64,000 bases of DNA, taken from Vibrio kanaloae. GTDB lineage: Bacteria > Pseudomonadota > Gammaproteobacteria > Enterobacterales > Vibrionaceae. The stretch covers positions 124,001 to 188,000 of the forward strand of contig NZ_AP025498.1 in NCBI RefSeq assembly GCF_024347535.1, in the 5' to 3' direction. Under the pieces are notes generated by a model, which saw only the letters and a list, made by a program, of their open reading frames with translations, did not search any database and was not told where the DNA came from. Below are positions 6,535-22,402 of the stretch, one piece after another (within the stretch, counting starts at the first letter, position 1; every line of letters starts with the position of its first letter). Both the position numbers and the translations under genes were made by a program.

Positions 6535-6567
6535 AAAAAAACGCCCAAGCTGGCTGGTGCTTGAGCG
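6535..6567 (-). terminator. Intrinsic terminator of ompW
   Basis: On the minus strand CGCTCAAGC pairs with GCTTGGGCG (one U-G pair) around an 8-base loop and is followed by seven T. It lies 26 bases after the ompW stop codon. Confidence 0.8.
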
Positions 6568-6592
6568 CTCGGAATCATCTAACAAAGGTTAG

Positions 6593-7246
6593 TTAGAAGT
6601 TGTAACCACCGCCAATCATGAATGCCCATGGGTCGATATCAACATCTGTAGAGTATTGTGTGGTAATTCCACCGACTGTTTGCTTGTACTTAGCGGTTGT
6701 ACCAATATCTGCATACCAAACCGATGCGTTTAGAAACCAATCTTCATTGATCATGTAATCAATGCCTATGTTAGCCGCTAAGCCCCAAGAATCATCAAGA
6801 GATAGGTCACTCAAGCCTGCACTTTTACCCGTACTATTCAAACTTTCATCGAAAAATACAGTGTAGTTGATACCAGCACCTACGTAAGGACGGAAATCAC
6901 TGTTCGCTTCACCGAAGTAGTATTGAACCATAAACATTGGCGGTAGCTGTTTAGTGTCGGCAACTTTACCTAAACCATTGACGGAGATATTGTGTGAAAA
7001 TGGACTCGCTGCTAATACTTCAAAACTGAGGTTATCAGTAAACATGTAGCCGAAAGTTAAACCAAGCTGAGTATCTGAATCAACTGAAAACTCTAGGTCT
7101 GAATTGTCAAGAACAGCGCCACTGCTGTCATTTGGAGATACTGTTGCTGCACCAGCACGGATGATGAAATCACCTTCTTTATGAGCAAGAACATTGGTTG
7201 ACAAAAGAGCCGCAATAACCGCAATACCACATACTGTTTTTTTCAT
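6593..7246 (-). CDS. ompW: OmpW-family outer membrane protein
   Basis: A 217-aa protein with a cleavable signal peptide (MKKTVCGIAVIAALLSTNVLA, cleavage before HKEG). The mature part has alternating beta strands of an eight-stranded barrel, the OmpW signatures LGLTFGYMFTDNLSFEVLAASPF and PYVGAGINYT, and a terminal Phe required for outer-membrane insertion. OmpW forms a narrow hydrophobic channel. A perfect FNR-type dyad lies about 94 bases upstream of the start, matching the known oxygen control of ompW in enterics. Confidence 0.93.
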   Translation of the reverse strand: MKKTVCGIAVIAALLSTNVLAHKEGDFIIRAGAATVSPNDSSGAVLDNSDLEFSVDSDTQLGLTFGYMFTDNLSFEVLAASPFSHNISVNGLGKVADTKQLPPMFMVQYYFGEANSDFRPYVGAGINYTVFFDESLNSTGKSAGLSDLSLDDSWGLAANIGIDYMINEDWFLNASVWYADIGTTAKYKQTVGGITTQYSTDVDIDPWAFMIGGGYNF

Positions 7247-7648
7247 TATTATTTCCTTTTTAGGGCTTAATTCTTTATTGGTGAATGAGTAATCATTTCT
7301 TATTTTGCGTGCAAGGTAGCATAGAATAACCCTACTTTATTGATGGAAATCAATTTGTGAAAGGTTATGGTTATTTGTGTAAATTTATATCGACTCGATC
7401 ACTTTATTTCCTCATTTTATTGACAGTTTTGTAATGCATATTTTCCGTGCATCATTCCTTTAAACACTTCACCTTAGCTTTAATTCGACCTGTCTGTGCC
7501 AAAATAGAGCAAGCCAAGACCTCATGCGCATCAATTTGGTGCAGCACCACGCCGTCAACTCACACCTTGTTTAATATTCAATGAGTTACATTTGGCTTAG
7601 TGCTTGCAAGTGTATGTTCATAATCATAAATACATTGAGGTTCTGACC
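7247..7648. other. ompW / glgC divergent intergenic region
   Basis: About 400 bases with no gene. It holds the FNR-type box (7340-7353) near ompW and a 13-bp palindrome TGGTGCAGCACCA at 7537-7549 about 100 bases before glgC. A possible ompW -10 element (TATGCT, minus strand) is at 7318-7323. Confidence 0.5.
7340..7353 (-). promoter_or_regulatory. FNR-type binding site upstream of ompW
   Basis: TTGATGGAAATCAA is an exact TTGAT-N4-ATCAA dyad, the FNR consensus. Its centre is about 26 bases upstream of a possible -10 hexamer TATGCT (7318-7323), a position close to that of class II activator sites. Confidence 0.6.
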
Positions 7649-8866
7649 ATGCAAGACACTCTAACAATCGTTCTGGCCGGCGGTGTTGGCTCTCGGCTTT
7701 CCCCTCTCACCGATAACCGTGCAAAACCTGCGGTACCCTTTGGTGGTAAATATCGAATCATAGATTTCACTCTCGCGAACTGCTTACACTCTGGGCTACG
7801 ACAAATTTTAGTGCTGACTCAGTACAAATCTCACTCTTTGCAAAAGCATTTGAGAGATGGTTGGTCGGTGCTTAACCCCGAGCTCGGCGAATACATCACC
7901 AATGTTCCCCCACAAATGCGCACCGGTGACAGCTGGTATAGCGGCACTGCCGATGCGATTTATCAAAATTTGTATTTGCTGTCTCGCAGTGAAGCCAAGC
8001 ATGTGGTGGTGTTATCCGGCGACCATATCTATCGCATGGATTACGCGCCAATGCTCAAGCAACACAAAAAGAACGAGGCTGACTTAACGGTAGCGTGTAT
8101 GGAAGTATCGATTGATGAAGCCAAAGAGTTTGGTGTGATGGAGATAGACGAATCCCTGCAGATCAATAACTTTACCGAGAAGCCACGTTACCCTGCGAGT
8201 GTACCCGGTAGGCCAACCCGAAGCATGGCTTCAATGGGGATATACATCTTTGATAAGGAAGTCCTGACTCAAGCACTACTGACGGATGCAAAAGACCCGA
8301 GTTCAAGCCACGATTTTGGTAAAGACTTCATTCCTAAGTTAGTCGGAAACAACAGTGTTTATGCCTATAAGTTTGGAGATACAGAAGGCCGAGTTACTCA
8401 AGACGCCTATTGGAGAGATGTTGGAACCCTAGACTCCTATTACCAAGCCAATATGGACTTGCTAAAACCAGTTTCCCCTATCGATTTATATCAGCCTGAT
8501 TGGGCAATCCGTACCTACGAACCGCAACTGCCACCAGCACGAACCGTCGCTTCTGTAGAAGGGAACCAAGGGATATTTATCAACTCGATGATAGCGAACG
8601 GGGTTGTAATTGAAGGCGGGTCTGCGCAAAACTCTATCTTCTTTCCTAAAGTAAAAGTCAGCAATGCCGCGATTGTGATTGATAGTATTCTGTTTGAAGA
8701 TGTTGAAATAGGAAAAAACTGCCATATCCAAAACTGCATCATCGATAAGAACGTTAAGGTGCCTGATGATACTCAAATAGGCATTAATAGCAGGGACGAT
8801 GCCGAGCGATTTCATGTTTCAAAACAAGGTGTAATCGTAGTGCCATCGTCTTACAAATTCAGTTAA
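7649..8866 (+). CDS. glgC: Glucose-1-phosphate adenylyltransferase (ADP-glucose pyrophosphorylase)
   Basis: A 405-aa enzyme that makes ADP-glucose from ATP and glucose-1-phosphate, the committed step of glycogen synthesis. It shows the pyrophosphorylase motif VLAGGVGSRLSPLTDNRAKP at residues ~8-27, PFGGKYRIIDFTLANC, YSGTADAIYQN and VVLSGDHIYRMDY, then FTEKP and a C-terminal left-handed beta helix. A frame extension to a TTG at 7604 exists, but the ATG at 7649 has TGAGG eight bases upstream and matches family length, so it is preferred. No other glg genes are adjacent, as in other vibrios with a second, stand-alone glgC. Confidence 0.95.
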   Translation: MQDTLTIVLAGGVGSRLSPLTDNRAKPAVPFGGKYRIIDFTLANCLHSGLRQILVLTQYKSHSLQKHLRDGWSVLNPELGEYITNVPPQMRTGDSWYSGTADAIYQNLYLLSRSEAKHVVVLSGDHIYRMDYAPMLKQHKKNEADLTVACMEVSIDEAKEFGVMEIDESLQINNFTEKPRYPASVPGRPTRSMASMGIYIFDKEVLTQALLTDAKDPSSSHDFGKDFIPKLVGNNSVYAYKFGDTEGRVTQDAYWRDVGTLDSYYQANMDLLKPVSPIDLYQPDWAIRTYEPQLPPARTVASVEGNQGIFINSMIANGVVIEGGSAQNSIFFPKVKVSNAAIVIDSILFEDVEIGKNCHIQNCIIDKNVKVPDDTQIGINSRDDAERFHVSKQGVIVVPSSYKFS

Positions 8867-9289
8867 TACACGCCTATGATGAAACTAGATTTCTCAATCC
8901 AAAGGCAGCTCTGCGTTGCCTTATTTATGTCTAACTTAACGGCTCACTAGCCCTTGTGGAATGAAAGGATGAGTGCCGTCCATCATATAATAGTCAGCGG
9001 TGATTTGTAGATTTAGCACTAGAATATATATTTGGATTGATGCTTTATTTGGGTGATAAAAACTAAGAAAGGAAGGTAGGTTAGAGCAATTCATCAAGAA
9101 TGAAGTATTTTTGAACATGTCTTTAAAACACGAAACATAATATGCGTTCAGTTAATCGGACTTTCAAGGGAGCAAGGATAGATTATTTGATAACACTGAA
9201 GTCAATCACACATGTATGCTTTCGCTGTTGGTTAAACTATCCGATGTTTGCTACGTTTAAGTGACACAGTCATTGGAAAGGTATGATTT
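8867..9289. other. Intergenic region glgC to hibernation factor
   Basis: About 420 AT-rich bases. A weak hairpin (AAGGCA/TGCCTT, 8902-8922) followed by ATTTAT may terminate glgC. A 60-codon minus-strand frame (8936-9118) lacks a ribosome site and protein-like composition and is not called. Confidence 0.45.
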
Positions 9290-9646
9290 ATGAAAATAAA
9301 TGTTCAAACACATCATGTATCAATTAACGACGAGTCACGCAAAGACATCGAAGGAAAATTCGAGAAGATATCTAACCATTTCCCATCACTGATTAGCTGC
9401 GACATCATCATTACAAAAGAGCACAGCAAGCATCAGGTTGAAGTGTTCACCAACTACGAAGGCGTACGTGTATCGGCAAAAGCTACTGGAGACGTTATGT
9501 ACCCAGCAATCGCTTCAGCACTCAAGAAACTTGAAACAGGCCTGAGTAACCGTAAGGGACAATTGAAAGCAGACCTGCATGAGAAGCCAACAAGTACGAA
9601 GCCAGAAATTGCTTCAGATATCATCCAAGAGATGAAATTGGTATAA
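9290..9646 (+). CDS. raiA: Ribosome hibernation factor, HPF/YfiA (RaiA) family
   Basis: A 118-aa protein of the HPF/RaiA family, which binds the 30S decoding centre and inactivates ribosomes in stress or stationary phase. The fold is beta-alpha-beta-beta-beta-alpha over residues 1-95 (INVQTHHVSI, HQVEVFTNYEGVRVSAKATGDVMYPAIASALKKLETGL), followed by a short C-terminal tail like that of RaiA rather than the tail-less short HPF. It lacks the long dimerisation domain of long HPF. An AAAGG ribosome site lies before the ATG. It stands alone, followed by a minisatellite and a strong terminator. Confidence 0.85.
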   Translation: MKINVQTHHVSINDESRKDIEGKFEKISNHFPSLISCDIIITKEHSKHQVEVFTNYEGVRVSAKATGDVMYPAIASALKKLETGLSNRKGQLKADLHEKPTSTKPEIASDIIQEMKLV

Positions 9647-9656
9647 CTCTATAAGT

Positions 9657-9724
9657 AGAAGCGACCTAACTAATAGAAGTGCATAAACCAACAGAAGCGC
9701 ATTAACTAATAGAAGCGCACTAAG
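9657..9724. repeat. 18-bp tandem repeat, 3.8 units
   Basis: Units start at 9657, 9675, 9693 and 9711; the best form is AGAAGCGCATTAACTAAT. Units differ at a few positions. It lies between the hibernation factor stop codon and its terminator, so it is transcribed in the 3' untranslated region. Confidence 0.75.
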
Positions 9725-9730
9725 GTTTTC

Positions 9731-9758
9731 AAAGCCAGCACATGTTGCTGGCTTTTTC
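9731..9758 (+). terminator. Intrinsic terminator of the hibernation factor gene
   Basis: Perfect 10-bp stem AAAGCCAGCA / TGCTGGCTTT, 5-base loop CATGT, then TTT. Confidence 0.85.
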
Positions 9759-10188: not shown

Positions 10189-10980
10189 GTGAGTTTAAGG
10201 ATGGAACACCAACTAAGTAATGACTGGAAGCATATCGAATGGGTACTAACCGACGTCGATGATACGCTCACTTGGCAAGGCTCACTTCCTCCAAATACCT
10301 TGATTGCGTTGCAAAAGCTAAGAGACAACGGAATCAAAGTGGTCGCAGTTACAGGAGCCTGTGCTGGTTGGTGCGATCATATTGCGCAACTTTGGCCTGT
10401 CGATGCCGTGCTTGGAGAAAATGGCGCTTTCTTGCTAGAGAAGCAAGACGGTGCATTACAGCTTTCATCGGAAATTCCGCTAGAACAAGTGCGTCAGAAC
10501 CAAGCCAAGCTAAAACAACAAGTCGAAACGATCTTGTTGAATTACCCAGACTTATCTCTAACTTTGGACCAACCTTACCGCTTGTGTGAGGTCGCTATTG
10601 ATATCGGCCAAAACCGTAAGCCTGTTGATCCTGAAATAGTGCAAGAGGTACTTGAGAGAATACATGCTTTAGGCGCATACGCGACGGCCAGCTCGATTCA
10701 TATTAATGCTTGGTATGGAGAGCACTCAAAGAAAAACGCGGTGCATCTTTTTCTCGCAAATAAAGGCCTATCGATCGAACAGATCCATAACCAAGCCTGT
10801 TATGTCGGCGATTCAATGAACGATCAACAAATGTTCGAGTCGTTACCTCTATCCGTTGGCGTGGCTAATATTAAGCATTATTGGGATAAGCTAGATCATC
10901 ACCCAAGTACGGTGATGTCGCAGCCGGGTGGCTATGGGTTTGCAGAATTTGTGGATGCGCTATTGGCAGTTAAAAGCTAG
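10189..10980 (+). CDS. HAD-IIB family hydrolase (sugar-phosphatase-like)
   Basis: A 263-aa cytoplasmic HAD phosphatase. Motif I is TDVDDTLT (nucleophile D22, acid D24), motif II is VTGACAG, the Lys of motif III is in SKKNAV, and motif IV is YVGDSMNDQQMF. The C2B-type cap lies between motifs II and III, as in sucrose-phosphate and mannosyl-3-phosphoglycerate phosphatases. The start is uncertain: a GTG at 10189 has no clear ribosome site, while the ATG at 10201 has AAGG placed directly against it. The substrate cannot be read. It is convergent with the phn genes. Confidence 0.88.
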   Translation: MSLRMEHQLSNDWKHIEWVLTDVDDTLTWQGSLPPNTLIALQKLRDNGIKVVAVTGACAGWCDHIAQLWPVDAVLGENGAFLLEKQDGALQLSSEIPLEQVRQNQAKLKQQVETILLNYPDLSLTLDQPYRLCEVAIDIGQNRKPVDPEIVQEVLERIHALGAYATASSIHINAWYGEHSKKNAVHLFLANKGLSIEQIHNQACYVGDSMNDQQMFESLPLSVGVANIKHYWDKLDHHPSTVMSQPGGYGFAEFVDALLAVKS

Positions 10981-11127: not shown

Positions 11128-11931
11128 CTATATGAGTTTGTTACGGATATGGATCACTACGGCTTCAGCAATAATAACCACCGCAAAGATACTCACTAAT
11201 ACCATCGACACTTTTTGCCATTCAAACAAATTCTGCGCATCGTTGAGCACCACACCAATACCACCAGCGCCTACCAAACCCAATACCGCAGATTCACGCA
11301 CATTGATATCCCACCGGAACAATACAATTGAGTAAAATGCGGGCATCACTTGTGGCCAATAACCTTTAAGCAAGATACTCATCCACGAAGCACCTGTTGT
11401 GCGCAAAGCTTCAATAGGCCCCATATTCACTTCAGCAATAGCTTCCGCTAACAGCTTCCCTACAAAGCCGATACTGCGAATGGCGATCGCCATGATACCT
11501 GCGAGAACACCGGGGCCAAACAGTGCGATAAACAACAGTGCCCAAACCAACGAATTCACTGAGCGTGAAGACACGAGAAAGAATTGAGCAACCCAGTTCA
11601 ACGCTTTATTCGGGGTAATGTTTGGCGCATTCAATAACGCTAACGGAATTGCAAATACCAAGGTAAATAAAGTACCTAACGTTGCGATGTGAAGTGTTTC
11701 AATCATCGCTGCGTGGATCGATTCGGGATAGAAGGCATAGTCCATTGGCACCATGCGCTCAAACATATCAGCAAACTGCGCTGGCGCGTCGTATAAGAAC
11801 TCAGGAATCACTTCCACCGTTTGCCAAGACCAAACAATGGCACACACTAAGCTGAGGTAAACGGCAAACCGAGCCACGCGTTCGTTGGGTGTAAAGCGTT
11901 GCCACTCTCTATCGATAGATGCAGTTGTCAT
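11128..11931 (-). CDS. phnE: Phosphonate-type ABC transporter permease 2
   Basis: A 267-aa inner-membrane permease of the PhnE family with about six membrane segments. The cytoplasmic coupling loop is visible as EALRTTGASWMSILLKGYWPQVMPAF, followed by the family signature RWDINVRESAVLGLVGAGGIG. The start overlaps the end of the first permease gene by one base. With its partner it forms a heteromeric channel energised by PhnC. The solute is set by the PhnD-like binding protein. Confidence 0.93.
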   Translation of the reverse strand: MTTASIDREWQRFTPNERVARFAVYLSLVCAIVWSWQTVEVIPEFLYDAPAQFADMFERMVPMDYAFYPESIHAAMIETLHIATLGTLFTLVFAIPLALLNAPNITPNKALNWVAQFFLVSSRSVNSLVWALLFIALFGPGVLAGIMAIAIRSIGFVGKLLAEAIAEVNMGPIEALRTTGASWMSILLKGYWPQVMPAFYSIVLFRWDINVRESAVLGLVGAGGIGVVLNDAQNLFEWQKVSMVLVSIFAVVIIAEAVVIHIRNKLI

Positions 11932-12755
11932 TAGAAGATTCTCCTAACAATGTTGGAAAGAAATTCACCGACAAGAATCAGTGCGATAATGGTGAGCAAA
12001 ATAGCGGCGACAAAGTCGTAATCAAAACGCTGGAATGCCGAGAACAGCGTACCGCCAAGGCCCCCCGCCCCCACGATACCCACCATGGTGGAATTACGTA
12101 AATTCGAGTCCAGCTGGTAGCTAGCAAAACCAATAAAACGCGTGAAAACCTGCGGCATCACCGCATATAAAATGACACTGATGAAACTCGCGCCTGTTGC
12201 CTTAATCGCTTCAACTGGTTTAAAAGAAATTTCTTCAATCGCTTCTGCAAACAGCTTGGCGATGAAGCCAATTGATGCGAATACCAAAGTCAAGATCCCG
12301 GCCAAGGCACCAAAGCCCACCGCTTTCACGAATAGAATTGCAATGATCACTGGATGAAAAGAGCGACATAGCGCAATAAAGCAGCGTATTGGCGTCGACA
12401 CGATTGAAGGCATCATATTTCTCGCAGCTAACAAGCCAAGAAACAATGAAATAACGATGCCAAAGAAGCTAGAGATAATCGCAATCTGCAAGCTCTCTGC
12501 TAAACCGCTCAATAGTAAGCTGGTACGCGAAAAGTCAGGCGGAAACATTCGAGATAGTAGCCGTTCACTTTCACCAAAGCCGATGATCAAACGATCAAAC
12601 GTCAGCCCTAATGTCGAAAAGCTATAGAACAGGTAAGCAATAATGCCAGCGATGATCGCACGGTTCGTCCATGACACTTTAAATGGGTTTTCATGGTTCG
12701 CTGGCGATGTGCTTGATGAAACGCTTGGCGACGAACCTGGGTTTAATCCAGCCAT
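11931..12755 (-). CDS. phnE: Phosphonate-type ABC transporter permease 1
   Basis: A 274-aa PhnE-family permease. A Ser/Pro-rich N-terminal tail of about 25 residues precedes the first membrane span; the coupling loop is [26 protein letters not shown] and the C-terminal signature is [22 protein letters not shown]. It overlaps phnC by 13 bases and phnE2 by one, so the three are translationally coupled. Both permeases share the ELSE-free PhnE pattern and are diverged duplicates of each other. Confidence 0.93.
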
Positions 12756-13513
12756 GACTCACCCCCGTAAATGATTTTTAGATCTTCTTCTGAGATCCCT
12801 TCAGGGCTACCGTCATAATGTACTTTACCGTTACACATACCGATGATGCGCTTGGCATAACGCTTGGCCAAGTTCACATCGTGGATGTTAACCAGCACGG
12901 GAATGTTTTTCTGTTCTGCGAATGTCTCCATCAACTCCATGATCTCAACCGCGGTTTTCGGGTCGAGTGATGAAGTCGGTTCATCCGCCAATAAGATATA
13001 TGGGTCTTGCATAACGGCGCGAGCGATACCGACACGCTGTCTTTGCCCACCCGACAAACTGTCGGCACGTTGGTTAGCAAAGTCTTGCAGGCCAACAAAT
13101 TCAAGTAACTCGAACGCTTTGGCGAGGTCTTGCGCAGAGTAGTTGCGACGCCATGCATTCCAAGCGGTCATGTAACCTAAACGCCCGCTCAACACGTTTT
13201 CGATAACCGTTAAACGCTCTACCAAGTTGTACTCTTGAAAGACCATGCCGATATGTCGACGCTGTTTACGTAGTGCTTGGCCTTTTAATTGAGTCAGGTC
13301 AGCGCCATCAAAAATGATCTCACCTTGGCTTGGATCGTTGAGACGGTTGATACAGCGCAGAAGCGTACTTTTACCGGTACCGGATGGGCCAATGATCGCG
13401 ATGATACCTGGCTCATCGATATCAATATTAATGCCTTTAAGGATTGGCTTGCCTGCCACGTATTCGTGGAAAAGGTTGTTTATCTTTATTCCTTCATAGC
13501 TTGCTACGGCCAT
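12743..13513 (-). CDS. phnC: Phosphonate-type ABC transporter ATP-binding protein
   Basis: A 256-aa ATPase. Walker A is [11 protein letters not shown], the Q-loop is MVFQEYNLV, the ABC signature is [14 protein letters not shown] and Walker B with catalytic Glu is [12 protein letters not shown]; the H-loop is NIHDV. The ribosome site AAGGAA precedes the ATG. It follows phnD by about 130 bases and overlaps the first permease, completing a PhnD-C-E-E cassette. None of the C-P lyase genes (phnG-M) or phosphonatase genes is present nearby, so import of an intact phosphate ester or phosphonate for other enzymes is implied. Confidence 0.95.
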
Positions 13514-13642
13514 ACTGCATTTCCTTTTGCGAATTTTCGAATGATCTATGCCCTACCCGCGAGGGCATAGATATTTAGTTGAAGTAGGTATTTTTAAAGG
13601 GCTAAGTCTTTCTAAAACTTAGCCTTCCAACAGAGCTAAGAA

Positions 13643-14683
13643 CTAGCCGTTGTTTGCTTGTTTTGCTAGCTCAGCGGCTTTTTTCTTCGCGCGTTTAGCC
13701 GCATCTTTTTCAGCGAGTTTCTTAAGGCCAGCTTTTGTGTAAGCCGTACCTGTCGCGTGGGCGATATCACGAATCACGTCCCACTCTTCTTTGTAGCTGA
13801 TTGGTGAGAAGCGGTCTGCACCTTTGAATGATGCGCTCATCTCTGGAGTAAAGCGGTAGCTAAAGAAAGCCTCGTTGATCTTCTCAACCAATTCTGGTTT
13901 TAGGTTGTAAGCATACCCAAATGCAGACGTTGGGAAGCGTGGGCTACGGTAGATGATCTTCAGTTCAGAATCGTCAACACGACCTGCTGCTACCATACGA
14001 TCGTAAACATCCGATGCCACAGGTGCTGCGTCATAGTCTCCATTGAAAACACCAAGAATAGATTGGTCATGCTTACCTGAGTAAAGCACTTTGTAATCTT
14101 CATCTGGCACTAGGCCTTTCGCTGGGAATAACGCACGTGGAGCTAGGTTGCCAGAGTTGGAAGATGCAGAAGTGTGTGCAACCTTTTTGCCTTTCAGATC
14201 AGTCATTGTATTGATGCCGCTGTCTTTACGTACAATCGTGATTAGGTTGTAGCCTTGGAAGCCAGACTCATCGCCCTTCACCGCAATTGGAACGTAACCT
14301 GCTAAGTTAACTGCGTAGCCTGTTGGGCCAGTAGAGAAACCCGCAACGTGCAGTCGACCAGAACGCATCGCTTCTACTTGCGCAGAGTTCGAGTGAACTG
14401 TGTAGTAAATCACTCGCTTACCCGTGATTTTACTTAGGTGAGCTTGGAAATCTGCAAACGCATCTTTGTACAACGCAGGGTCTTCTACTGGCGTGTAGGT
14501 AAACACAAGCGTACTTGGGTCATTCCACTCATCTGGGTTCTTTGGTGAATCGGCCACCAAATCTTGGTTTTCATCACAGTATCGATCGTCTAACACACCA
14601 CGGCTAGAGCAGTCGCTTGCCATAGCCATTGAAGGAAGTAGTAATGAGCTAGCGATTAACAGTCCTTTAACACTGATTTTCAT
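13643..14683 (-). CDS. phnD: PhnD-like periplasmic substrate-binding protein
   Basis: A 346-aa exported protein of the phosphate/phosphite/phosphonate binding family. A signal peptide (residues 1-~23, ending SMAMA) is followed by LVFTYTPVEDPALYKDAFADF and the ligand motif YYTVHSNSAQVEAMRSGRLHVAGFSTGP, then KKVAHTSASSNSGNLAPR. The mature N-terminus has a CSSRG...RYCDE segment with two Cys not usual in PhnD. The C-terminus is Lys/Ala-rich. The TTG at 14689 extends the frame by two codons, but the ATG at 14683 has GTAAGG seven bases upstream. It has its own sigma-54 promoter 45-60 bases upstream. The ligand may be glycerol-3-phosphate or a related ester given the phosphodiesterase neighbour; that is inference. 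Confidence 0.9.
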   Translation of the reverse strand: MKISVKGLLIASSLLLPSMAMASDCSSRGVLDDRYCDENQDLVADSPKNPDEWNDPSTLVFTYTPVEDPALYKDAFADFQAHLSKITGKRVIYYTVHSNSAQVEAMRSGRLHVAGFSTGPTGYAVNLAGYVPIAVKGDESGFQGYNLITIVRKDSGINTMTDLKGKKVAHTSASSNSGNLAPRALFPAKGLVPDEDYKVLYSGKHDQSILGVFNGDYDAAPVASDVYDRMVAAGRVDDSELKIIYRSPRFPTSAFGYAYNLKPELVEKINEAFFSYRFTPEMSASFKGADRFSPISYKEEWDVIRDIAHATGTAYTKAGLKKLAEKDAAKRAKKKAAELAKQANNG

Positions 14684-14727
14684 ATTCAAACCTTACTTTT
14701 ACTTATTGTTGAAAGTCACCTTCACTA

Positions 14728-14744
14728 TTGCAGCCTTCGTGCCA
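14728..14744 (-). promoter_or_regulatory. Sigma-54 promoter of phnD
   Basis: On the minus strand TGGCACGAAGGCTGCA: the -24 GG and -12 GC dinucleotides are exactly 10 bases apart and the -24 box TGGCAC is perfect. It ends about 45 bases before the phnD start codon. The sigma-54 response regulator encoded at 16508 is the obvious activator. Confidence 0.78.
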
Positions 14745-14802
14745 CCTTTTTATACCTTTAATTTCAGTCACTTAAATAAAAACCCAAACTGACTAATATC
14801 TT

Positions 14803-14853
14803 TTGAGTCATAAGTGTCCAACTAAAAATCCATCATTTGGGTCATTTCTGTCC
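14803..14853 (-). promoter_or_regulatory. Putative activator sites upstream of phnD
   Basis: Two 17-bp copies, TTGAGTCATAAGTGTCC (14803-14819) and TTGGGTCATTTCTGTCC (14837-14853), agree at 13 of 17 positions and are 34 bases apart. The nearer copy starts 59 bases from the -24 end of the phnD sigma-54 promoter. A third copy has the same spacing at the phosphodiesterase promoter. Confidence 0.55.
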
Positions 14854-14869
14854 CGTCGATTTCAGTGGT

Positions 14870-14893
14870 AAAAAAAGAGCCCGAAGGCTCTTT
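14870..14893 (-). terminator. Intrinsic terminator of the phosphodiesterase gene
   Basis: Minus-strand stem AAAGAGCC / GGCTCTTT with a four-base loop and a run of T. It separates the phosphodiesterase transcript from phnD, which therefore depends on its own promoter. Confidence 0.8.
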
Positions 14894-14983
14894 GGTTCAC
14901 TGCTTTTTCTCTTATTATTCTTTGGCTAAGCGCTCTCTATACAAACGCTATAATTAGCGACGTAACAGCGCTCTCAGAATTAC

Positions 14984-16204
14984 CTATGCGTCACTGTCCA
15001 TGCAGTTAGCGTAATAAGTTACCGTTGCAGGCCAATCGCTGAATACACCCATCACACCCACATCTTGTGCCAGCACATCAAGCATTTTCATCATATCGCC
15101 ATCATTGTTGATGCCGTCTTTCACACTCTTGTAGTACCAACCACCGCCTTGCGCTAGCGGGCCAGAACGTTCCAGTGTCCAAGCGATAATGTCGAGGTCT
15201 GCATCCTTAGCAAGCTTGGCGTAATTAGACGCAACCAGTTCGTTGTTTTTGTCTAAATCAACCAGAGCAAACAGAGGTGGTGCGATGATATTCACACCCG
15301 CATCGTGCAGTTCCTTCATGTTCTCAACAGACGCGACAAAGTCCGCTTGCTCATAAACACGGTCATCAAGATAAACCGCTTGTTTGCCGAACTTCGGCGT
15401 CTCATTTATCCAATACTTCACATCATCCAAGTTGAATGACTGCAGGTAAGTCTCAGAAGGCTTGAAGCCCGCCTCTTTCAGTTCATCCACCAACTTCTGC
15501 GCATACATCTCTTGGCTAAATCCATTGAAAGGCATATCTACCGCTGCTGATTTCAATTCAGGAGTGACCTTCACGCCGTACTCTTTAAACAGTGCTGCAC
15601 TTTCTGCGTGTGTCATCAGTGTGCCACTTTGGCTGTAAAGATCGGTTCTCCAGCCAGGAGTGCCATTCATGTACTCTTCAACCGTGGTGGCTTTTGGGTT
15701 CGCACCATCCATTTTACCTTTGAGCGTCTTAAACTCAGCCAGCGTGAAATCAGAAGTACGGCACTCAACTTGAGCATCTTCACCTGTCGCTGGATTAGCT
15801 GGTGTAAAAGGGGTTGAGCACTTCTTAGCAAGATCTGGGTGCGCTAATACATCGGTCGTGGTGTGCAGATCACTTTGCGAATGGCGACATACCAACGCCT
15901 TATCTTTGGTGAAGGTCACATCACATTCGACGACACCAGCGCCCATTTGAATCGCCGCCAAATAGGATTCCTTAGTATGCTCTGGAAACTGCATAGCAGC
16001 TCCGCGATGCCCAATAGAAAAATCACTACGATGAAAAGGTCCTTCGCTGCAACTCAACAGCTTAGTTTTCAAAGGGCTCTCATCCATATTGTTGACTAAA
16101 AAGAGGGGACGAGGTCCTAAGTTTGCTGGTTCTGCAGCGGCCCATGCCGTTATTGAACTCATACCGAGTATCAGAGCAATCGAACCTTTCAGTATTTGCT
16201 TCAT
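14984..16204 (-). CDS. glpQ: Exported glycerophosphodiester phosphodiesterase
   Basis: A 406-aa GDPD-family enzyme that hydrolyses glycerophosphodiesters to glycerol-3-phosphate and an alcohol. A signal peptide (residues 1-~23, ITAWAAA) sends it to the periplasm or outside. Catalytic residues are visible: H66-R67 (SIGHRGAA), E75, E93 and D95 (VECDV) and H108 (CRHSQ). It is longer than a minimal GDPD and has four or more Cys, as in GlpQ-like secreted forms. A TTG at 16225 extends the frame, but the ATG at 16204 has a perfect AAGGAGA ribosome site and starts the signal peptide correctly. A sigma-54 promoter lies about 150 bases upstream and a terminator follows. Confidence 0.93.
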
Positions 16205-16268
16205 GTTTGTATCTCCTTGCAACAAGCAATTATTTTTCTAATGTCCTTTGTTCGATCATTCAGTGTTG

Positions 16269-16299
16269 GATAGCTGTCATATATAGATAACTGTCATAT
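16269..16299. repeat. Pho-box-like direct repeat in the phosphodiesterase leader
   Basis: GATAGCTGTCATAT (16269-16282) and GATAACTGTCATAT (16286-16299) differ at one base. Each holds CTGTCAT, the exact PhoB half-site, but they are 17 rather than 11 bases apart and point away from the gene. The repeat sits between the sigma-54 promoter and the start codon. Confidence 0.55.
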
Positions 16300-16355
16300 G
16301 TTTTTTTGACTCAACATCGAATAACCTCATGTGGGCTGACGCCACAATGTAGGGA

Positions 16356-16372
16356 TTGCACGCTTTGTGCCA
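16356..16372 (-). promoter_or_regulatory. Sigma-54 promoter of the phosphodiesterase gene
   Basis: Minus strand TGGCACAAAGCGTGCA: perfect -24 TGGCAC, then GC of the -12 element exactly 10 bases after GG. One base of the -12 box (G for T) differs from consensus. Confidence 0.78.
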
Positions 16373-16432
16373 GATGTTAAAGCCCTTTTATTACAATCAC
16401 TTGAAACAGTTAGCCATTCGACTAAAAACCAA

Positions 16433-16449
16433 ATGGGTCATTGTTGTCT
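16433..16449 (-). promoter_or_regulatory. Putative activator site upstream of the phosphodiesterase gene
   Basis: ATGGGTCATTGTTGTCT matches the phnD-upstream motif at 14837 at 13 of 17 positions. It starts 61 bases from the -24 end of its promoter, almost the same distance as at phnD (59). A flanking ACTAAAAA is also shared with the phnD region. Confidence 0.5.
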
Positions 16450-16507
16450 TGTGCTTTTTCTTTTGGCTTTTGCTTTTGGGTTTCCATTTAACAAACACCT
16501 GAACGAG

Positions 16508-17860
16508 TTAAGCTTTAAAACTCTCTTTATCCAATTGGTGTTTTTTCATTTTTCGATAAAGGGTTTTACGCGGTAAATTCAGCTTACTTGATACCTCGTT
16601 AATGTTGCCTGCGCTTTCTATTAGCGCTTCCGTCAATACATTTCTTTCGTACTGCTCCATCTGCTTTTCAAAAGCGAAATCTTCTCCGGGCGCTTCACAA
16701 ATTGGCGATTGAAGATCGAAGCCATCACCGACGATACCTAACACAAATCGATCAGCGACATTACGCAGTTCACGCACATTACCCGGCCATTCATGTCGGC
16801 ATAGCTGCTGAATTTGTTCCGGGTAAATCGTCGATGGGCGCGTTTTGTATTTGTGGCTCGCTTGAATCACAAAGTGGCGAAACAGCACCTGAATATCTTC
16901 TTTCCTTTGGCGCAGTGCCGGAAGGTTTAAGCTCGCAATGTTAAGGCGATAAAAGAGATCGGCTCTGAATTCCCCTGATTCACTCAAGCTCACAAGATCG
17001 GCTTTACTGGCTGCGACCACCACAATATCGACGGGTATCAGTTCATTGCCGCCAACACGCTCGATCATTCGCTCTTGAATCACTCGTAGTAGTTTGATTT
17101 GTACCGTAATTGGCATGCTCTCTATTTCATCAAGAAACAGCGTACCGCCATTGGCTTGTTCTATTTTGCCAATACGCTTCTTATTCGCGCTAGTAAACGA
17201 GCCCGCTTCATGACCAAACAACTCACTTTCGATAATGCTCTCTGTCATGCCACCACAGTTAATCGCGACAAATGGCTTAGCCTTACGACGGCTAAATTGA
17301 TGCAACGCGCGAGCTATCACCTCTTTGCCCGTTCCCGTTTCTCCGTTGATGATGGTATCGACGCCAGTATGCGCCAAAGCGAGTACTTGTTTACGTATGG
17401 TATCCATCATTTTTGATTGGCCGATAACCACAGATTCAATCGGTAACTCCTCTTGCTCATCGCCGTCCGAGGGGAAAGGACAATTATGCTGACATTGTGT
17501 CAACGCGAGATCGAGCTTTTCCACCAGTTCGCTAGCATTGAGCGGTTTTTCTAGGAAATCGAAAGCACCCAGCTTCATCGCTTCTATTGCCATCGGAATA
17601 TCACCGTGGCCACTCATTAACAATACAGGAACATTGGCCGCTCGGTGTTGAATTGAACTTAACAGAGTCAGTCCATCCACTTGTGGCATTCGTACATCAC
17701 ACAATACAACCGACTGACTGTTTGCTTTGAGCGATTTAAGACCAAGGTTAGGGTCAGTAAAGGTAGTCACGCTAAACCCTTCTAGCTCTAACATTTCACT
17801 CACAGCCTCGACAACATCGATTTCATCGTCGATAAGAACTATATGTTTTTCTGAAGTCAT
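16508..17860 (-). CDS. pgtA: Sigma-54-dependent response regulator (PgtA/DctD-like)
   Basis: A 450-aa activator. The receiver domain (residues 1-~120) has the acidic pair D11-D12, phospho-acceptor D55 in LCDVRMPQ and Lys in EKPLNA. The AAA+ domain has Walker A GETGTGKE and Walker B GGTLFLDEIES. The sigma-54 contact loop reads GSFTSA instead of the usual GAFTGA, keeping the Phe-Thr contact pair. The C-terminal Fis-type helix-turn-helix is VSSKLNLPRKTLYRKMKKH. It overlaps the sensor gene by 4 bases (ATGA). Its likely targets are the two sigma-54 promoters just downstream. DctD is the alternative family name; the sensor type favours PgtA. Confidence 0.88.
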   Translation of the reverse strand: MTSEKHIVLIDDEIDVVEAVSEMLELEGFSVTTFTDPNLGLKSLKANSQSVVLCDVRMPQVDGLTLLSSIQHRAANVPVLLMSGHGDIPMAIEAMKLGAFDFLEKPLNASELVEKLDLALTQCQHNCPFPSDGDEQEELPIESVVIGQSKMMDTIRKQVLALAHTGVDTIINGETGTGKEVIARALHQFSRRKAKPFVAINCGGMTESIIESELFGHEAGSFTSANKKRIGKIEQANGGTLFLDEIESMPITVQIKLLRVIQERMIERVGGNELIPVDIVVVAASKADLVSLSESGEFRADLFYRLNIASLNLPALRQRKEDIQVLFRHFVIQASHKYKTRPSTIYPEQIQQLCRHEWPGNVRELRNVADRFVLGIVGDGFDLQSPICEAPGEDFAFEKQMEQYERNVLTEALIESAGNINEVSSKLNLPRKTLYRKMKKHQLDKESFKA

Positions 17861-19830
17861 GAGTCTGTGCCTTTTGGTAGAGTGACGATAAAGGTGGTGC
17901 CTTGGTGTTCAACCGATTCCACGTGAATTGAGCCACCAAAGTCTTTAATTATGTTGTATGCGATAGATAAACCGAGTCCAAGTCCCTTACCTGTTGTCTT
18001 GCGGGTATAAAATGGGTCAAACAGATACGGAATATCCTCTTCAGAGATACCTGAGCCGTTGTCATTAACTGAGAGCTGAATAGTATGTGAGAGCTCGTGC
18101 GTAGAGATTCTGAGTTGAGGTTGCTCTTTGTGCTCAACGGCATCCAAAGCGTTACTGATCAAATTAACCAATACCTGCTCTAAGCGAATACTGTTGGCTC
18201 GAACCATCAGGCTATTTTGCGGTGAGAACTGAATCGACACTTTGGTCTGCCTGGTTTCAAACAGATCAATCGCATCACCAATCACCTTTTCTAATTCAAC
18301 ATTATCGATCTTGCCATCGCTCTTACGAGAAAAGGCTTTCAAGTGACGAGTAATCGCTACTACTTTCTCTAACAGCACTTCTATTTTCTTCAGGTTATCT
18401 TGCGCTCGTTCTGGCCTTTGCTTGTCGATCCAAAGCTGCGCACTACGAACGTGACTATTTACAGCTGTCAGAGGTTGATTGATCTCGTGCGTGATCCCGA
18501 CACTTAGTTGTCCCAATGCCGCCAATTTACCCGCTTGGATCAGCTCATCTTGGGTCACTCGCAATTTGGCTTCGGCTAAGGTGCGCTCTTCAACCTCAGC
18601 CTCCAGCTTACGGTTAGTTTGCTTAACGATTTTGGCCGTGGTTTGAAATACCTTCAGGTACTTGGCCATTTGCGTCACTTCGTCTTTACCACGAATAGAT
18701 ACTTCGGTATCTAAATGGCCGGTAGAAATCGCAAACATGTTGTCTTTAAGCTGTAAAAGCCTTTCCAAAATACTCTTACGCACGTAGAACCATGAAATGG
18801 CAGCGGCAGCCAACACGCTAAATAGAGAAAGGAAGAGAGAAAGACGCTGATTAGATTGCAAAGATTGCTGCGCCTGCTGAATCGATTGGTCAATATTGCT
18901 ATTCACCTTGCTGGTGTTGCTTTCGATCTGCACGGTTAATTGGTTCAAATGTTCACGGCTGTTTTGCAGGAAGTATTGCTCTTGATAAAGATGATCGAGC
19001 GCTTTGTTTTTCATCCCATACAAGCTGCTATCGCTTGAGGCAAGGTTATAAATCACCGTGAGTTGATGATCTAATTGAGGAAAATTACTTCTTAAATCAC
19101 CACTGACCCAGAGCTTCCACCACTCTTCTCCTACCTGCTCGAGTCGGTAACTGGTGTAATCCAGTTCATTAAAACTGGAATCGTTATACAGCTTTTCGAC
19201 CAAGCCTAATTGGTAATAAAGCAAAGACTTGAGCTGTGTGTACTGGATTTGATCTTTGGCAGACTCAGGTAGGCTATCAAGTGAATCACTGGCCTGTTGC
19301 AGTAGCGGGTAAAAACCTTCTAGCAAATTACGAAGCTCTTGATTGAGCTGTTCTGACTCAATTTCACTTTGATACAACAAGCTAAGGCTGTTGTTAACTT
19401 GGGCGATCAGATCTTTAAAGTAGGCGTGATAATCAGGGAATTGAACCATAACGCTATTCATGACTGATATTGCCTCTTCAATTTTAAGCATCGCCTGTTT
19501 GCGCTCTAAATTCGATTCAGCGTCACCGAGCTGAGAAGATGTTGTGATAATCACTCGCACCATATCATTAAGGCGAGCGGCATTATCTAAGGCCGGTATT
19601 TCACTCTCCTTTAGCTCAACAAGACGTTGGTTTAAATCATCGAAGGTAAAGCTGGAGACAACTGAGAGGAAGATAGTGGTCATCGATAGCATGGCTAACG
19701 CAAGTACCAAGCGCAGCTCAATACCTTTCCAACCAAACCACTTACGACGTGGAATTTTGATCGAGAACGGGCGCTCGAAACTATCCTTATTTTCTACAAC
19801 CTCGGAGACATGACTACTCACTCGCCCCAC
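17857..19830 (-). CDS. pgtB: Sensor histidine kinase (PgtB-like)
   Basis: A 657-aa membrane kinase. A first membrane span at about residues 35-60 and a second near 328-350 (LSLFLSLFSVLAAAAISWFYV) enclose a large, mainly helical, coiled-coil-rich periplasmic domain. HAMP and coiled coil follow, then the HisKA box GITHEINQPLTAVNSHVR with H448, and an HATPase domain with N-box NLISNALDA, G1 DNGSGISEE and G2 TGKGLGLGLS. It lacks the two PDC domains of DctB, so it resembles the phosphoglycerate sensor PgtB. The signal is probably an organophosphate, by context. Confidence 0.87.
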   Translation of the reverse strand: MGRVSSHVSEVVENKDSFERPFSIKIPRRKWFGWKGIELRLVLALAMLSMTTIFLSVVSSFTFDDLNQRLVELKESEIPALDNAARLNDMVRVIITTSSQLGDAESNLERKQAMLKIEEAISVMNSVMVQFPDYHAYFKDLIAQVNNSLSLLYQSEIESEQLNQELRNLLEGFYPLLQQASDSLDSLPESAKDQIQYTQLKSLLYYQLGLVEKLYNDSSFNELDYTSYRLEQVGEEWWKLWVSGDLRSNFPQLDHQLTVIYNLASSDSSLYGMKNKALDHLYQEQYFLQNSREHLNQLTVQIESNTSKVNSNIDQSIQQAQQSLQSNQRLSLFLSLFSVLAAAAISWFYVRKSILERLLQLKDNMFAISTGHLDTEVSIRGKDEVTQMAKYLKVFQTTAKIVKQTNRKLEAEVEERTLAEAKLRVTQDELIQAGKLAALGQLSVGITHEINQPLTAVNSHVRSAQLWIDKQRPERAQDNLKKIEVLLEKVVAITRHLKAFSRKSDGKIDNVELEKVIGDAIDLFETRQTKVSIQFSPQNSLMVRANSIRLEQVLVNLISNALDAVEHKEQPQLRISTHELSHTIQLSVNDNGSGISEEDIPYLFDPFYTRKTTGKGLGLGLSIAYNIIKDFGGSIHVESVEHQGTTFIVTLPKGTDS

Positions 19831-20214: not shown

Positions 20215-21201
20215 CTAAAGAATAATCATCCCATCTCGATAAGTCAGCGCTGGAGACACGTCTTGGCCGAGCAATACAGGGCCATCAAGGTCGACAATCT
20301 CAGATTGAACAGCAATAGGCAGCGCCGCTCGCATCGCCAACGATGTACCGAGCATACAGCCCGACATAAGAGTAAAGCCAAGCCTTTGGGCTTCTTCTGC
20401 AAGTACCAAGGCTTCAGTCAGACCGCCCGTTTTATCAAGCTTGATGTTGACCATTTCATACTTGCCCAACAGCGATGAGAGCTGTGAGGTAGTATGACAA
20501 CTTTCATCGGCACACAATGGTATCGGGTGATTGATGTGCGCCAGTGAGGCATCGTGCTGTTGGGGTAACGGCTGCTCGATCATCGCAATATCAAATTCTG
20601 TCAGCTGATTGAACAGCTCTTCGAGATTCAATCCAGTCCAAGCTTCATTGGCATCCAGTACAATTTTAACTTCGGGAGCTGCTTCTCGGACAGCGCGCAC
20701 ACGCTCTACTACTTGTTCACCATCAAGCTTCACTTTTAGAAGTTTTGCTCCATTCGCGACATAGTCTCGAGCCTGAGTCGCCATCGCTTCCGGTGTGCCA
20801 ATCGAGACGGTCATTGCTGTCACGATTTGAGCAGGTAACTCAAACAAGCTGTTTGGAAAGGTCTGGTCGTTCTGCTGAGCTTCAAAATCCCAAAGCGCAC
20901 AATCGACCGCATTTCGCGCTGCCCCTCCGATCAATAAAGACTGAAGGTGATCTCTTAGCTCTACCGGATCGGTAACGCCTCTCTCAAACATACCTTCAAG
21001 AGCACTAGACGCTTGTTGGATTTGCGCTAACACAGACTCCGATGACTCGCCGTATCGTGGGTAAGGGGTGCACTCTCCCTGAGCTTGTTTGCCATCATGC
21101 TCAATATAAACACGAACAACGTGACACTCAGTTCGGCTGCCACGAGAGATGCGAAAAGCCGTTTGCATCGCGATAGTAATGGGTTCTGCTGTAATCTTCA
21201 T
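20215..21201 (-). CDS. dgcA: N-acetyl-D-glutamate racemase DgcA (enolase superfamily)
   Basis: A 328-aa enolase-superfamily enzyme of the dipeptide-epimerase-like group. The catalytic KxK is K156/K158 (LLKVKLDGE), metal ligands are D183 (VLDANEAW), E209 (MIEQPLP) and D232 (CADES), and the second catalytic Lys is K254 (NIKLDK). Taken alone it could be an L-Ala-D/L-Glu epimerase. Its position directly after dgcN, with a LysR gene beyond, matches the marine D-glutamate pathway in which DgcA racemises N-acetyl-D-glutamate to the L form. Cytoplasmic. Confidence 0.85.
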   Translation of the reverse strand: MKITAEPITIAMQTAFRISRGSRTECHVVRVYIEHDGKQAQGECTPYPRYGESSESVLAQIQQASSALEGMFERGVTDPVELRDHLQSLLIGGAARNAVDCALWDFEAQQNDQTFPNSLFELPAQIVTAMTVSIGTPEAMATQARDYVANGAKLLKVKLDGEQVVERVRAVREAAPEVKIVLDANEAWTGLNLEELFNQLTEFDIAMIEQPLPQQHDASLAHINHPIPLCADESCHTTSQLSSLLGKYEMVNIKLDKTGGLTEALVLAEEAQRLGFTLMSGCMLGTSLAMRAALPIAVQSEIVDLDGPVLLGQDVSPALTYRDGMIIL

Positions 21202-21258: not shown

Positions 21259-22266
21259 TTATAATGAATGTCGCAAATGATCAGTAATGGGCTGTACACC
21301 AAAGCGCACTGGATCCGTCACTGGCACTTGATAAAGTGTGGTCCATTTTTGGCACAATGTCTCAGCATCTTCAATGCTAATCGCCGACGTGTTCAAACAG
21401 ATACCCACCAGCGTCGCGTCTGGGTTGGTCAGTCGCGCCGCTTGCAAGTTGGCTCCAATCGTCTGTTCTATACTTGGTAGTTGAGCATGAGGAAGGTTGC
21501 GAATATGTGGTCGCCCTACTTCATGGCACAGCACTAAGGCGTCGGCTTGTGCGCCATGTAAAAGGCCCAAACTGACGCCGGCAAACGAAGGGTTGAACAA
21601 AGAACCTTGCCCTTCAATGATGTCCCATTCGTGGTCGGTAAAGTCGGGGCTAATCGCTTCCACCGCGCCGGAAATAAAATCCGCAACTACAGCATCAATC
21701 GAAATGCCGCTGCCAGCGATCAAGATACCAGTCTGCCCTGTCGCTTTGAACAGAGCAGATGTTCCCGCTTTATTAAGCGATTCTTCAATGGCTAAAGCTG
21801 AAAACATTTTACCGACTGAGCAATCTGTTCCGACAGTAAGCAGGCGCTTACCTTGACGAGGCTTACCGTTACCAACCTTTAGATCACCGTCAAAATGGCG
21901 TACATCATGGAGCTTAGTCAACCCTCGCTGTTGCATCTCAGCAAGCGGTGAAAATTCACTCAAGCGTTGGTGCATGCCAGACGCAATCTCAAATCCCATT
22001 TCTGCAGCTGCCATTATGGTTGGCAGCCAAGAGTCAGGAATAACGCCACCTGGGTTTGCTGTGCCAATGACTAACGTTTTCGCGCCCTGTGCTTGCGCCT
22101 CTTGTAAGGTTATATCCGTTAAACCAAGAGAAACCGTATTGCCTGTTAAACGCAGTTGGCCGAGGCAGATTTCTGGTCGCCATTGATGAATACCGCGAGC
22201 GGTTTTTGCAGCGAGTGGGTCAGTAACATCCCCAAGAAAAAGAAGGTAAGGTTGAGCGATAGACAT
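21259..22266 (-). CDS. dgcN: D-glutamate N-acetyltransferase DgcN (DUF1611)
   Basis: A 335-aa DUF1611-family protein. It contains the N-terminal Rossmann-like region (VIGTANPGGVIPDSW), a P-loop-like motif VGTDCSVGKMFSALAI and IEGQGSLFNPSFAGVS typical of the family. DgcN acetylates D-glutamate so that DgcA can racemise it; L-glutamate is then released by deacetylation. The ATG at 22266 has AGGA six bases upstream and is preferred to the ATG two codons earlier. It is transcribed with dgcA, with 57 bases between. Confidence 0.87.
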   Translation of the reverse strand: MSIAQPYLLFLGDVTDPLAAKTARGIHQWRPEICLGQLRLTGNTVSLGLTDITLQEAQAQGAKTLVIGTANPGGVIPDSWLPTIMAAAEMGFEIASGMHQRLSEFSPLAEMQQRGLTKLHDVRHFDGDLKVGNGKPRQGKRLLTVGTDCSVGKMFSALAIEESLNKAGTSALFKATGQTGILIAGSGISIDAVVADFISGAVEAISPDFTDHEWDIIEGQGSLFNPSFAGVSLGLLHGAQADALVLCHEVGRPHIRNLPHAQLPSIEQTIGANLQAARLTNPDATLVGICLNTSAISIEDAETLCQKWTTLYQVPVTDPVRFGVQPITDHLRHSL

Positions 22267-22402
22267 GAGCATTCCTAATTAATAAGTCCTTGTATGAATT
22301 TACTTTAATTAAGAACTTCGAAGGTGCCGAATGCTTATTTATCGAATGTCTATAACGCAAGGTTATAGGTGAAAAGTTAAGTAATGCTCAAAAAGTGAGG
22401 AG

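Follow-up and report, generated by a model that had tools for sequence, protein, structure and literature searches.

A candidate glycerol-phosphate scavenging system with its own two-component regulators in Vibrio kanaloae and related bacteria

Background

In Salmonella, PgtA and PgtB (together with PgtC) regulate the PgtP antiporter, and the Pgt system handles phosphoglycerates. TorT/TorS is representative of a kinase type that reads a periplasmic binding protein. Here we describe a gene cluster of Vibrio kanaloae that encodes a sensor kinase, a sigma-54-dependent response regulator, a predicted glycerophosphodiester phosphodiesterase (GDPD) and an ABC-type importer. The cluster lies within a stretch of 64,000 nucleotides (contig NZ_AP025498.1, positions 124,001 to 188,000), which is called the window in this text and supplies its position numbers. 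The GpxB transporter of Phaeobacter MED193 and Marinobacter, published in December 2025, comprises a PhnT-family binding protein, an ATPase and two permeases (PMC12718374). GpxB binds sn-glycerol-1-phosphate (G1P) and sn-glycerol-3-phosphate (G3P) with Kd values of ~1-2.5 uM, structure 9LF9 shows the Marinobacter protein with G1P bound, nine ligand residues are given, and Vibrionales are named among its holders (PMC12718374). The authors leave the regulation of GpxB and UgpB to further work, and the words two-component, glpQ and phosphodiesterase are absent from the main text of their paper (PMC12718374).

The transporter of the window has the same composition as the GpxB transporter and retains eight of the nine ligand residues. 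In contrast to GpxB, its binding protein falls in a separate group and carries Ser247, and the genes have their own sigma-54 two-component system and regulator boxes and adjoin genes for an exported-type GDPD and a HAD protein. The cluster resembles PgtA-PgtB of Salmonella in that a three-carbon phosphate ester would be taken up under the control of a membrane kinase and a response regulator of the sigma-54 type, but the scores against both Pgt models are far under their cut-offs, and in place of an antiporter the system has a GDPD and an ABC importer. The combination of a GDPD with a glycerol-phosphate importer follows the logic of Escherichia coli GlpQ/GlpT and UgpBAEC-UgpQ, whereas the binding protein is not homologous to theirs, and control would be exerted by a dedicated two-component system. 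An earlier note on this DNA knew of no description of the exact combination. No title or abstract start describing it was found in the open-access literature searched, although the glycerol-phosphate ligand class is now described for GpxB (PMC12718374).

Results and discussion

Gene order and proposed function

The cluster consists of seven consecutive, nearly contiguous genes that all read in one direction on the minus strand, as the earlier note had placed them. According to the list of open reading frames (ORFs), they encode in order the kinase, the regulator, the GDPD, the binding protein, a PhnC-type ATPase and two PhnE-type permeases (Table 1). The kinase matches the Pfam families HAMP, HisKA and HATPase, the first two slightly below their gathering scores. 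The regulator combines a receiver, a Sigma54_activat domain and a Fis-type helix-turn-helix (HTH) with -24/-12 promoters at its presumed targets, as is typical of sigma-54 response regulators. The other five proteins match GDPD, Phosphonate-bd, ABC_tran and, twice, BPD_transp_1. A terminator-like hairpin lies between the GDPD gene and those of the transporter, so the effectors are expected to be transcribed as two units.

The cluster is probably a substrate-induced scavenging system. The kinase would sense a glycerol-phosphate compound, either directly or via the loaded binding protein, and the regulator would then bind paired boxes and activate sigma-54 polymerase at both other transcripts. 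The GDPD would cut glycerophosphodiesters outside the inner membrane and so free glycerol phosphate, which the GpxB-like protein and the ABC transporter would import. Finally, the HAD protein would split phosphate from the imported product and leave glycerol, and in this way the archaeal-type enantiomer could be used too. Gene order, conserved sigma-54 promoters, paired boxes confined to the cluster, co-occurrence of the kinase with the binding protein, and eight of nine ligand residues are shown by the sequences and their comparison.

The comparisons drew on 80 relatives found by their binding protein, an independent set of 150 Vibrionaceae genomes, and 395 genomes of the query's phylum (query included). 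Nine of the 80 loci (L063, L064, L065, L069, L070, L076, L077, L079 and L080), for which an antisense ORF had been picked, are outside the residue, tree and promoter counts; none of them has a two-component system beside the binding-protein gene. The conserved synteny that the earlier note proposed to look for is present, with the order kinase-regulator-GDPD-transporter in 37 of the 80 relatives. Another 12 have kinase, regulator and transporter without an intact GDPD gene in between. The remaining 31 lack an adjoining two-component system and comprise sulfate-reducer lineages, Burkholderiales and L038, whose stretch is cut. The kinase gene is split in L017 and L068, and in L068 the regulator gene is split too.

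A binding protein related to GpxB

The binding protein scores above the cut-off of TIGR01098, a broad model for phosphate, phosphite and phosphonate binding proteins, and below that of the PhnD equivalog TIGR03431 (134 versus 261 bits). Its best solved relative is 9lf9 (273 bits), followed by PtxB (94) and E. coli PhnD 3p7i (60). In the alignment (9lf9 numbering), all seven residues that hold the phosphate head are identical to those of GpxB (T111, G112, Y138, S168, N169, S170 and H199). Of the tail-binding pair Arg223/Thr247, the arginine is kept and Thr247 is replaced by Ser, so the window protein lacks the full pair that marks GpxB. The resulting pattern, TGYSNSHRS, is found in 73 of 76 rows of the clade to which the window protein belongs (clade A); one more row has Ser together with another change, and two have Gln. 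Ser247 also occurs in one of nine rows of a second group, group B.

The tree separates clade A from group B (support 97/89, branch 2.05). Clade A includes Vibrionaceae, Moritella, Alginatibacterium, Oceanospirillaceae, Budviciaceae, a few metagenome-assembled genomes (MAGs), sulfate-reducer lineages and Burkholderiales. Marinobacter GpxB, the one characterised GpxB in the tree, is placed among the group-B rows (with L110_B, 97/99); group B does not resolve as a single clade, and the root, on the long PtxB branch, is unsure. Identity to Marinobacter GpxB is 46.5% for the window protein and 68-74% for Vibrionaceae group B. Among the 150 Vibrionaceae genomes, clade A (at least 91% identity to the window protein) is present in 24, group B (46-50%) in 16, and both in four. 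The pocket suggests that the window protein functions like GpxB, and we infer that its ligand is G3P, G1P or both. Because Thr247 is Ser and the protein does not group with the characterised GpxB, it is filed as GpxB-like rather than as GpxB.

The earlier note had described the transporter as PhnDCEE, and an ordinary phosphonate importer, for example for 2-aminoethylphosphonate, might feed the phosphonatase of this genome, with the GDPD gene as a chance neighbour. The PhnC and PhnE components do score above phosphonate-transporter cut-offs, and a phosphonatase above its cut-off is encoded at C2:1453476 on the contig of the window, at a distance of 1.3 Mb, or of ~0.16 Mb if the contig is circular. 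However, the PhnD part of the description does not hold at equivalog level, E. coli PhnD is a far more distant relative than GpxB, and the GDPD and binding-protein genes share a promoter type and a box. The note's statement that C-P lyase, phosphonatase and UgpBAEC-type genes are absent nearby is true locally, and for the C-P lyase gene phnJ it extends to the whole genome; the phosphonatase and a ugp-like operon do occur elsewhere on the contig. Phosphonate uptake is thus a very improbable function for the cluster.

Promoters and regulator boxes

The sigma-54 promoters that had been noticed on both effector transcripts are conserved. Each of the two scores above 200 shuffles of its base composition. 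A score of at least 13 of 15.5 is reached in 38 of 38 regions between regulator and GDPD genes, in 38 of 38 between GDPD gene and gpxB (both sets include the window), and in 12 of 12 between regulator gene and gpxB, versus none of 21 regions without a two-component system, where the best score is 12.5. In L046 the best counted site lies within the start of the gpxB ORF, and a second good match is found upstream. The set without a two-component system includes L038, which starts inside gpxB and contributes 103 bases only.

A box, GGACA-N3-RTGACYCAWW, was found by reading the promoter regions. With up to two mismatches, it occurs as a pair 33-34 bp apart 5' of the binding-protein gene in all 38 GDPD-gpxB regions and singly in 28 of the 38 regulator-GDPD regions. 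No box is found in the 21 regions without a two-component system, and 0.4-1.2% of shuffled regions carry one; the shuffles preserved nothing but base composition, and these counts are not independent trials, given the kinship of the loci. In the window, boxes begin 109 and 75 bases 5' of the -24 element of gpxB and 77 bases 5' of that of the GDPD gene. Exact matches, with the first G omitted from the pattern, number three in the 4.65-Mb genome, and all are in this cluster. A wider regulon was set aside, since the 27 genome matches with at most one mismatch compare with 29 for the reversed pattern, which is the chance level. The three exact matches and the chance-level number of one-mismatch sites indicate a small, local regulon.

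Regulator-gpxB regions of distant lineages contain a palindrome-like form, GGACA-N4-TGTCC, which is perfect in two Budviciaceae (L046 and L049). Within two mismatches, this form is present in 12 of 13 such regions. One of the 13, L057, has an unrelated regulator and was too short for the sigma-54 count, which therefore has 12 rows. Because the palindromic form also occurs in 3 of the 21 regions without a two-component system, it is weaker evidence. The conserved DNA sites likely serve the sensor-regulator pair, and the boxes presumably bind the cluster's own regulator.

Alternatively, the cluster could be an ordinary phosphate-starvation (PhoB) island, with a two-component system that was added locally and has little influence. 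In other bacteria, exported GDPDs and Ugp importers take part in the response to phosphate starvation (PMC10132767, PMC5438359), a weak Pho-box-like match with four mismatches lies 5' of the window GDPD gene, and the best matches are slightly better on average than shuffles in two of three region sets (mean mismatches in regions versus shuffles, 5.2 and 5.8 for GDPD regions, 5.1 and 5.7 for gpxB regions, 5.9 and 5.8 for regulator-gpxB regions). However, no region has fewer than three mismatches, and shuffles reach three as well. Pho-box control was set aside, because the matches barely beat the shuffles and no site is convincing. Since each of the 38 GDPD-gpxB regions examined retains both the sigma-54 promoter and the boxes, there is little chance that the cluster is such an island.

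A direct repeat, ATGACAG, is present at positions 16274-16297 in the 5' leader of the GDPD gene. Among 37 relatives, both copies are found in L009 only, and L006 and L008 have one copy.

The sensor and its regulator

The kinase has predicted transmembrane windows at residues ~36-63 and ~329-351, with a periplasmic part of ~260 residues between them that is predicted to be all-helical. Such a large helical sensor, with a binding-protein gene in the same locus, is reminiscent of TorT/TorS, but the fold matches of the window kinase model (mean confidence 70.5) all came from the kinase domain, and no sensor relative stood out. Kinase orthologues occur in 24 of 24 Vibrionaceae genomes with a clade-A binding protein and in none of the 126 others (Fisher p ~3e-28, kinship ignored), a count that rests on the best 8 of the 13-73 candidate sites in each listed genome. 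L048, with a stop in its stretch, is outside the kinase alignment. The stretches examined around group-B transporters of nine Vibrionaceae genomes (L102-L110; L107 is cut short upstream) contain no match to this kinase or regulator, which suggests that having a dedicated regulator is a feature of clade A.

The earlier note had called the pair PgtAB-like, which is true in a loose sense. The sensor's best NCBIfam match is the PgtB model NF047794, at 230 bits with a cut-off of 1000, and its sensor part is not aligned. The PgtA model NF047793 ranks seventh for the regulator, at 316 bits with a cut-off of 650. Membership in PgtA/PgtB was set aside, because both curated cut-offs are missed by far. 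We infer that the sensor detects glycerol phosphate or a glycerophosphodiester, possibly via the loaded binding protein.

The predicted phosphodiesterase

The GDPD protein scores well above the PF03009 gathering score (85 versus 23.6 bits) and below the cut-off of the GlpQ equivalog NF008354 (51 versus 254 bits). Its residues H73, R74, E100, D102, H115 and E223 are invariant in 16 sequences and align with GlpQ; the HR...E.D...H...E residues of this family are catalytic. By eye, the N terminus resembles a signal peptide. The structure model has a mean pLDDT of 55.6.

A predicted HAD phosphatase shared with other importers

A gene convergent with the operon encodes a protein of the HAD-IIB superfamily (TIGR01484, 57 bits with a cut-off of 42). 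Homologues adjoin the clade-A transporter in many Vibrio loci. At 35-42% identity, they also lie by this transporter in Desulfofustis (L047), a Desulfobulbaceae MAG (L054), Halodesulfovibrio (L067) and Burkholderiales (L073 and L074). The HAD gene is directly next on the same strand in L067 and L074, and two genes intervene in L073.

The 150 Vibrionaceae genomes contain 57 HAD matches in 55 genomes, 13 of which lie within ~6 kb of a clade-A gpxB by coordinates. The other 44 comprise 21 with ugpB and ugpC, 16 with DctP and DctM genes of TRAP transporters, four with a UgpQ-like GDPD only, and three with no tested partner; a UgpQ-like GDPD is near 40 of these 44. The ugpBAEC-type operons have the HAD gene behind ugpC (L113 1681-6747, L114 5818-10844 and L153-L171), and 20 of the 21 have a UgpQ-like GDPD near ugpB. 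In L113 and L114, UgpB is over its curated cut-off (549 and 557 versus 411 bits), and ugpC shares eight bases with the HAD ORF as called.

In the TRAP cassettes, DctP and DctM genes are followed by the HAD gene, with the UgpQ-like GDPD nearby (L111 of genome G108, 6055-9754, and L133-L137, L139, L140, L142, L143 and L146-L151); L133 also has ugp-like genes further off on the other side of the HAD gene. The closest solved relatives of the L111 binding protein are 4pfb (335 bits) and 4n6k (282 bits), and the other 15 TRAP binding proteins are 75-100% identical to it. Structures 4pfb and 4n6k contain glycerol phosphate and diglycerol phosphate (PMC11668362). The Vibrionaceae cassette therefore likely imports one of these compounds. 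No paper on a TRAP transporter together with glycerophosphodiester and glycerol-3-phosphate was found in the open-access literature.

Because members of the HAD family occur beside three importers that are unrelated to one another but all linked to glycerol phosphate, in most cases with a GDPD nearby, the HAD protein is predicted to dephosphorylate glycerol phosphate. This partnership, as read from gene neighbourhoods, is the strongest independent argument for glycerol phosphate as the ligand class of the cluster. A further homologue (86-88% identity) in L132 (G088:C14, ~7208-7957) has a stop codon and no tested partner, and its genome is without clade-A gpxB, as if the gene were decaying after loss of the transporter.

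A possible link to archaeal lipids

In three sulfate-reducer-type loci, a gene resembling glycerol-1-phosphate dehydrogenase (G1PDH) lies directly 5' of clade-A gpxB (L051 5112-6434, L052 7397-8728 and L060 7443-8771). The L052 protein matches the Pfam family Fe-ADH_2, and its best solved relative is the G1PDH 9h4x; those of L051 and L060 are 60-61% identical to it. Of 21 clade-A sulfate-reducer-type genomes, three have the gene (E 1e-40), in a single copy that adjoins gpxB, and no further copy was detected in the 395 genomes of the phylum at E 1e-60. The association favours G1P as a ligand in these sulfate reducers and, by homology only, provides a hint for Vibrio.

GlpD cannot oxidise G1P. 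Clade A might be a dedicated scavenger of archaeal lipids, in which the two-component system senses G1P compounds, the transporter imports G1P, and either the HAD protein (Vibrio) or the G1PDH-like enzyme (sulfate reducers) opens G1P to metabolism. We offer this as a tentative suggestion that is rather unlikely to be correct. If true, the system would be the first bacterial regulon for the glycerol enantiomer of archaea and would include the first intracellular routes of entry for it.

Evidence against the proposed function, and another possible ligand

Several observations weigh against the scavenging of glycerol phosphate as proposed above. The window binding protein does not group with the characterised GpxB of Marinobacter, and its T247S substitution is a change within the tail-binding pair. 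Because of this split, the lower identity to GpxB relative to group B, and the presence of both groups in four genomes, the ligands of clade A and GpxB may differ. The GDPD gene adjoins the binding-protein gene in 18 of the 24 clade-A genomes and not in the other six. Genome G025, whose binding protein is 99% identical to that of the window, has no GDPD gene beside gpxB, and the Budviciaceae, Oceanospirillaceae, Enterovibrio and Grimontia loci lack one there too. The GDPD is thus an accessory, and cleavage is not essential to the core of the system. Only 13 of the 24 genomes have the HAD gene next to clade-A gpxB; this gene is on the opposite strand in the window, and it has TRAP neighbours too. 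The G1PDH-like proteins of L052 and L060 are under the curated cut-off (153 and 165 versus 413 bits). The Vibrio form of the box is found in only 6 of 13 regulator-gpxB regions, where the looser palindrome mostly takes its place. Finally, other routes for glycerol phosphate exist in the genome, namely GlpT, a GlpQ-like gene and a ugp-like operon. GlpT is over its cut-off and encoded on the other contig, with a GlpQ-like neighbour that is 25% identical to the window GDPD. The ugpBAECQ-like operon (C2:91443-96774; L173 7444-12775) lies ~27 kb before the window, and its UgpB scores 403 bits with a cut-off of 411. The distinctive points of the cluster would be its substrate-type control and perhaps its affinity or use of G1P.

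Another small phosphate ester might be what the transporter imports and the HAD protein acts on, for example 3-phosphoglycerate, phosphoglycolate or an intact glycerophosphodiester. In keeping with this idea, PgtB is the nearest curated model for the sensor and PgtA is among the nearest for the regulator, the models nearest to the HAD protein include phosphoglycolate and mannosyl-3-phosphoglycerate phosphatases, and groups A and B occur together in four genomes, with Ser in place of T247 in the window protein. However, the Pgt scores are far under their cut-offs, Arg223 is retained along with the seven phosphate-binding residues, and Ser247 is found in one group-B protein too. Moreover, the partners of HAD homologues include UgpB and TRAP proteins near glycerol-phosphate-bound structures, and the GDPD and G1PDH-like partners point to glycerol phosphate. 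We therefore consider a different ester unlikely.

The earlier note had proposed that a phosphodiester is cleaved outside the cell and that a PhnD-type protein then takes up the product under control of the two-component system. The GpxB-like site, the co-occurrence of the kinase, the promoters and boxes, and the partners of the HAD protein all support this proposal, in which the GDPD has the place of an accessory and not of the core.

Other features of the window

Two ORFs 5' of the kinase gene, at 20215-21201 and 21259-22272, are found only in the closest relatives (nine loci, window included); we take them to be dipeptide-epimerase-like and DUF1611-like, respectively. The window contains no tRNA genes and no Rfam matches.

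Table 1. Features of the gene cluster and its surroundings, in window positions
Feature	Position	Strand	Basis or remark
Sensor histidine kinase	17857..19830	-	Pfam and NCBIfam; two transmembrane windows, HAMP, HisKA, HATPase
Sigma-54-dependent response regulator	16508..17860	-	Receiver, AAA+, Fis-type HTH; 4-base overlap with kinase gene
Predicted regulator box 5' of GDPD gene, AGACAACAATGACCCATT	16432..16449	-	Box in 28/38 loci
Sigma-54 promoter, GDPD gene, TGGCACAAAGCGTGCA	16357..16372	-	38/38 loci score at least 13 of 15.5
GlpQ-like glycerophosphodiester phosphodiesterase	14984..16225	-	ORF start TTG 16225; probable ATG 16204
Terminator-like hairpin and T run between GDPD and binding-protein genes	14870..14890	-	Judged by eye
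Predicted regulator box 1 5' of binding-protein gene, GGACAGAAATGACCCAAA	14836..14853	-	Pattern search
Predicted regulator box 2, 34 bases 3' of box 1, GGACACTTATGACTCAAA	14802..14819	-	Pair with 33-34 spacing in 38/38 loci
Sigma-54 promoter, binding-protein gene, TGGCACGAAGGCTGCA	14729..14744	-	38/38 loci
GpxB-like (clade A) periplasmic binding protein	13643..14689	-	Pfam Phosphonate-bd; probable ATG 14683
PhnC-type ABC ATPase	12743..13513	-	TIGR02315, 317 bits (cut-off 266)
PhnE-type permease 1	11931..12755	-	TIGR01097, 266 bits (cut-off 217)
PhnE-type permease 2	11128..11931	-	TIGR01097, 280 bits (cut-off 217)
HAD-IIB phosphatase, predicted glycerol-phosphate phosphatase	10189..10980	+	Convergent with operon; outside the region of the earlier note

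Conclusions

For a relative of GpxB, the cluster provides a concrete candidate regulator together with putative boxes and promoters. Predictions for the step after uptake follow as well, in the form of a HAD phosphatase that accompanies three unrelated glycerol-phosphate importers and a G1PDH-like enzyme in sulfate-reducer-type bacteria. The system would let the bacterium feed on what is left of the membranes of other organisms, and would give Vibrionaceae and related bacteria a way to gain phosphorus and carbon from the membrane lipids of other cells. It may also offer a handle on whether bacteria eat the lipid backbones of archaea.

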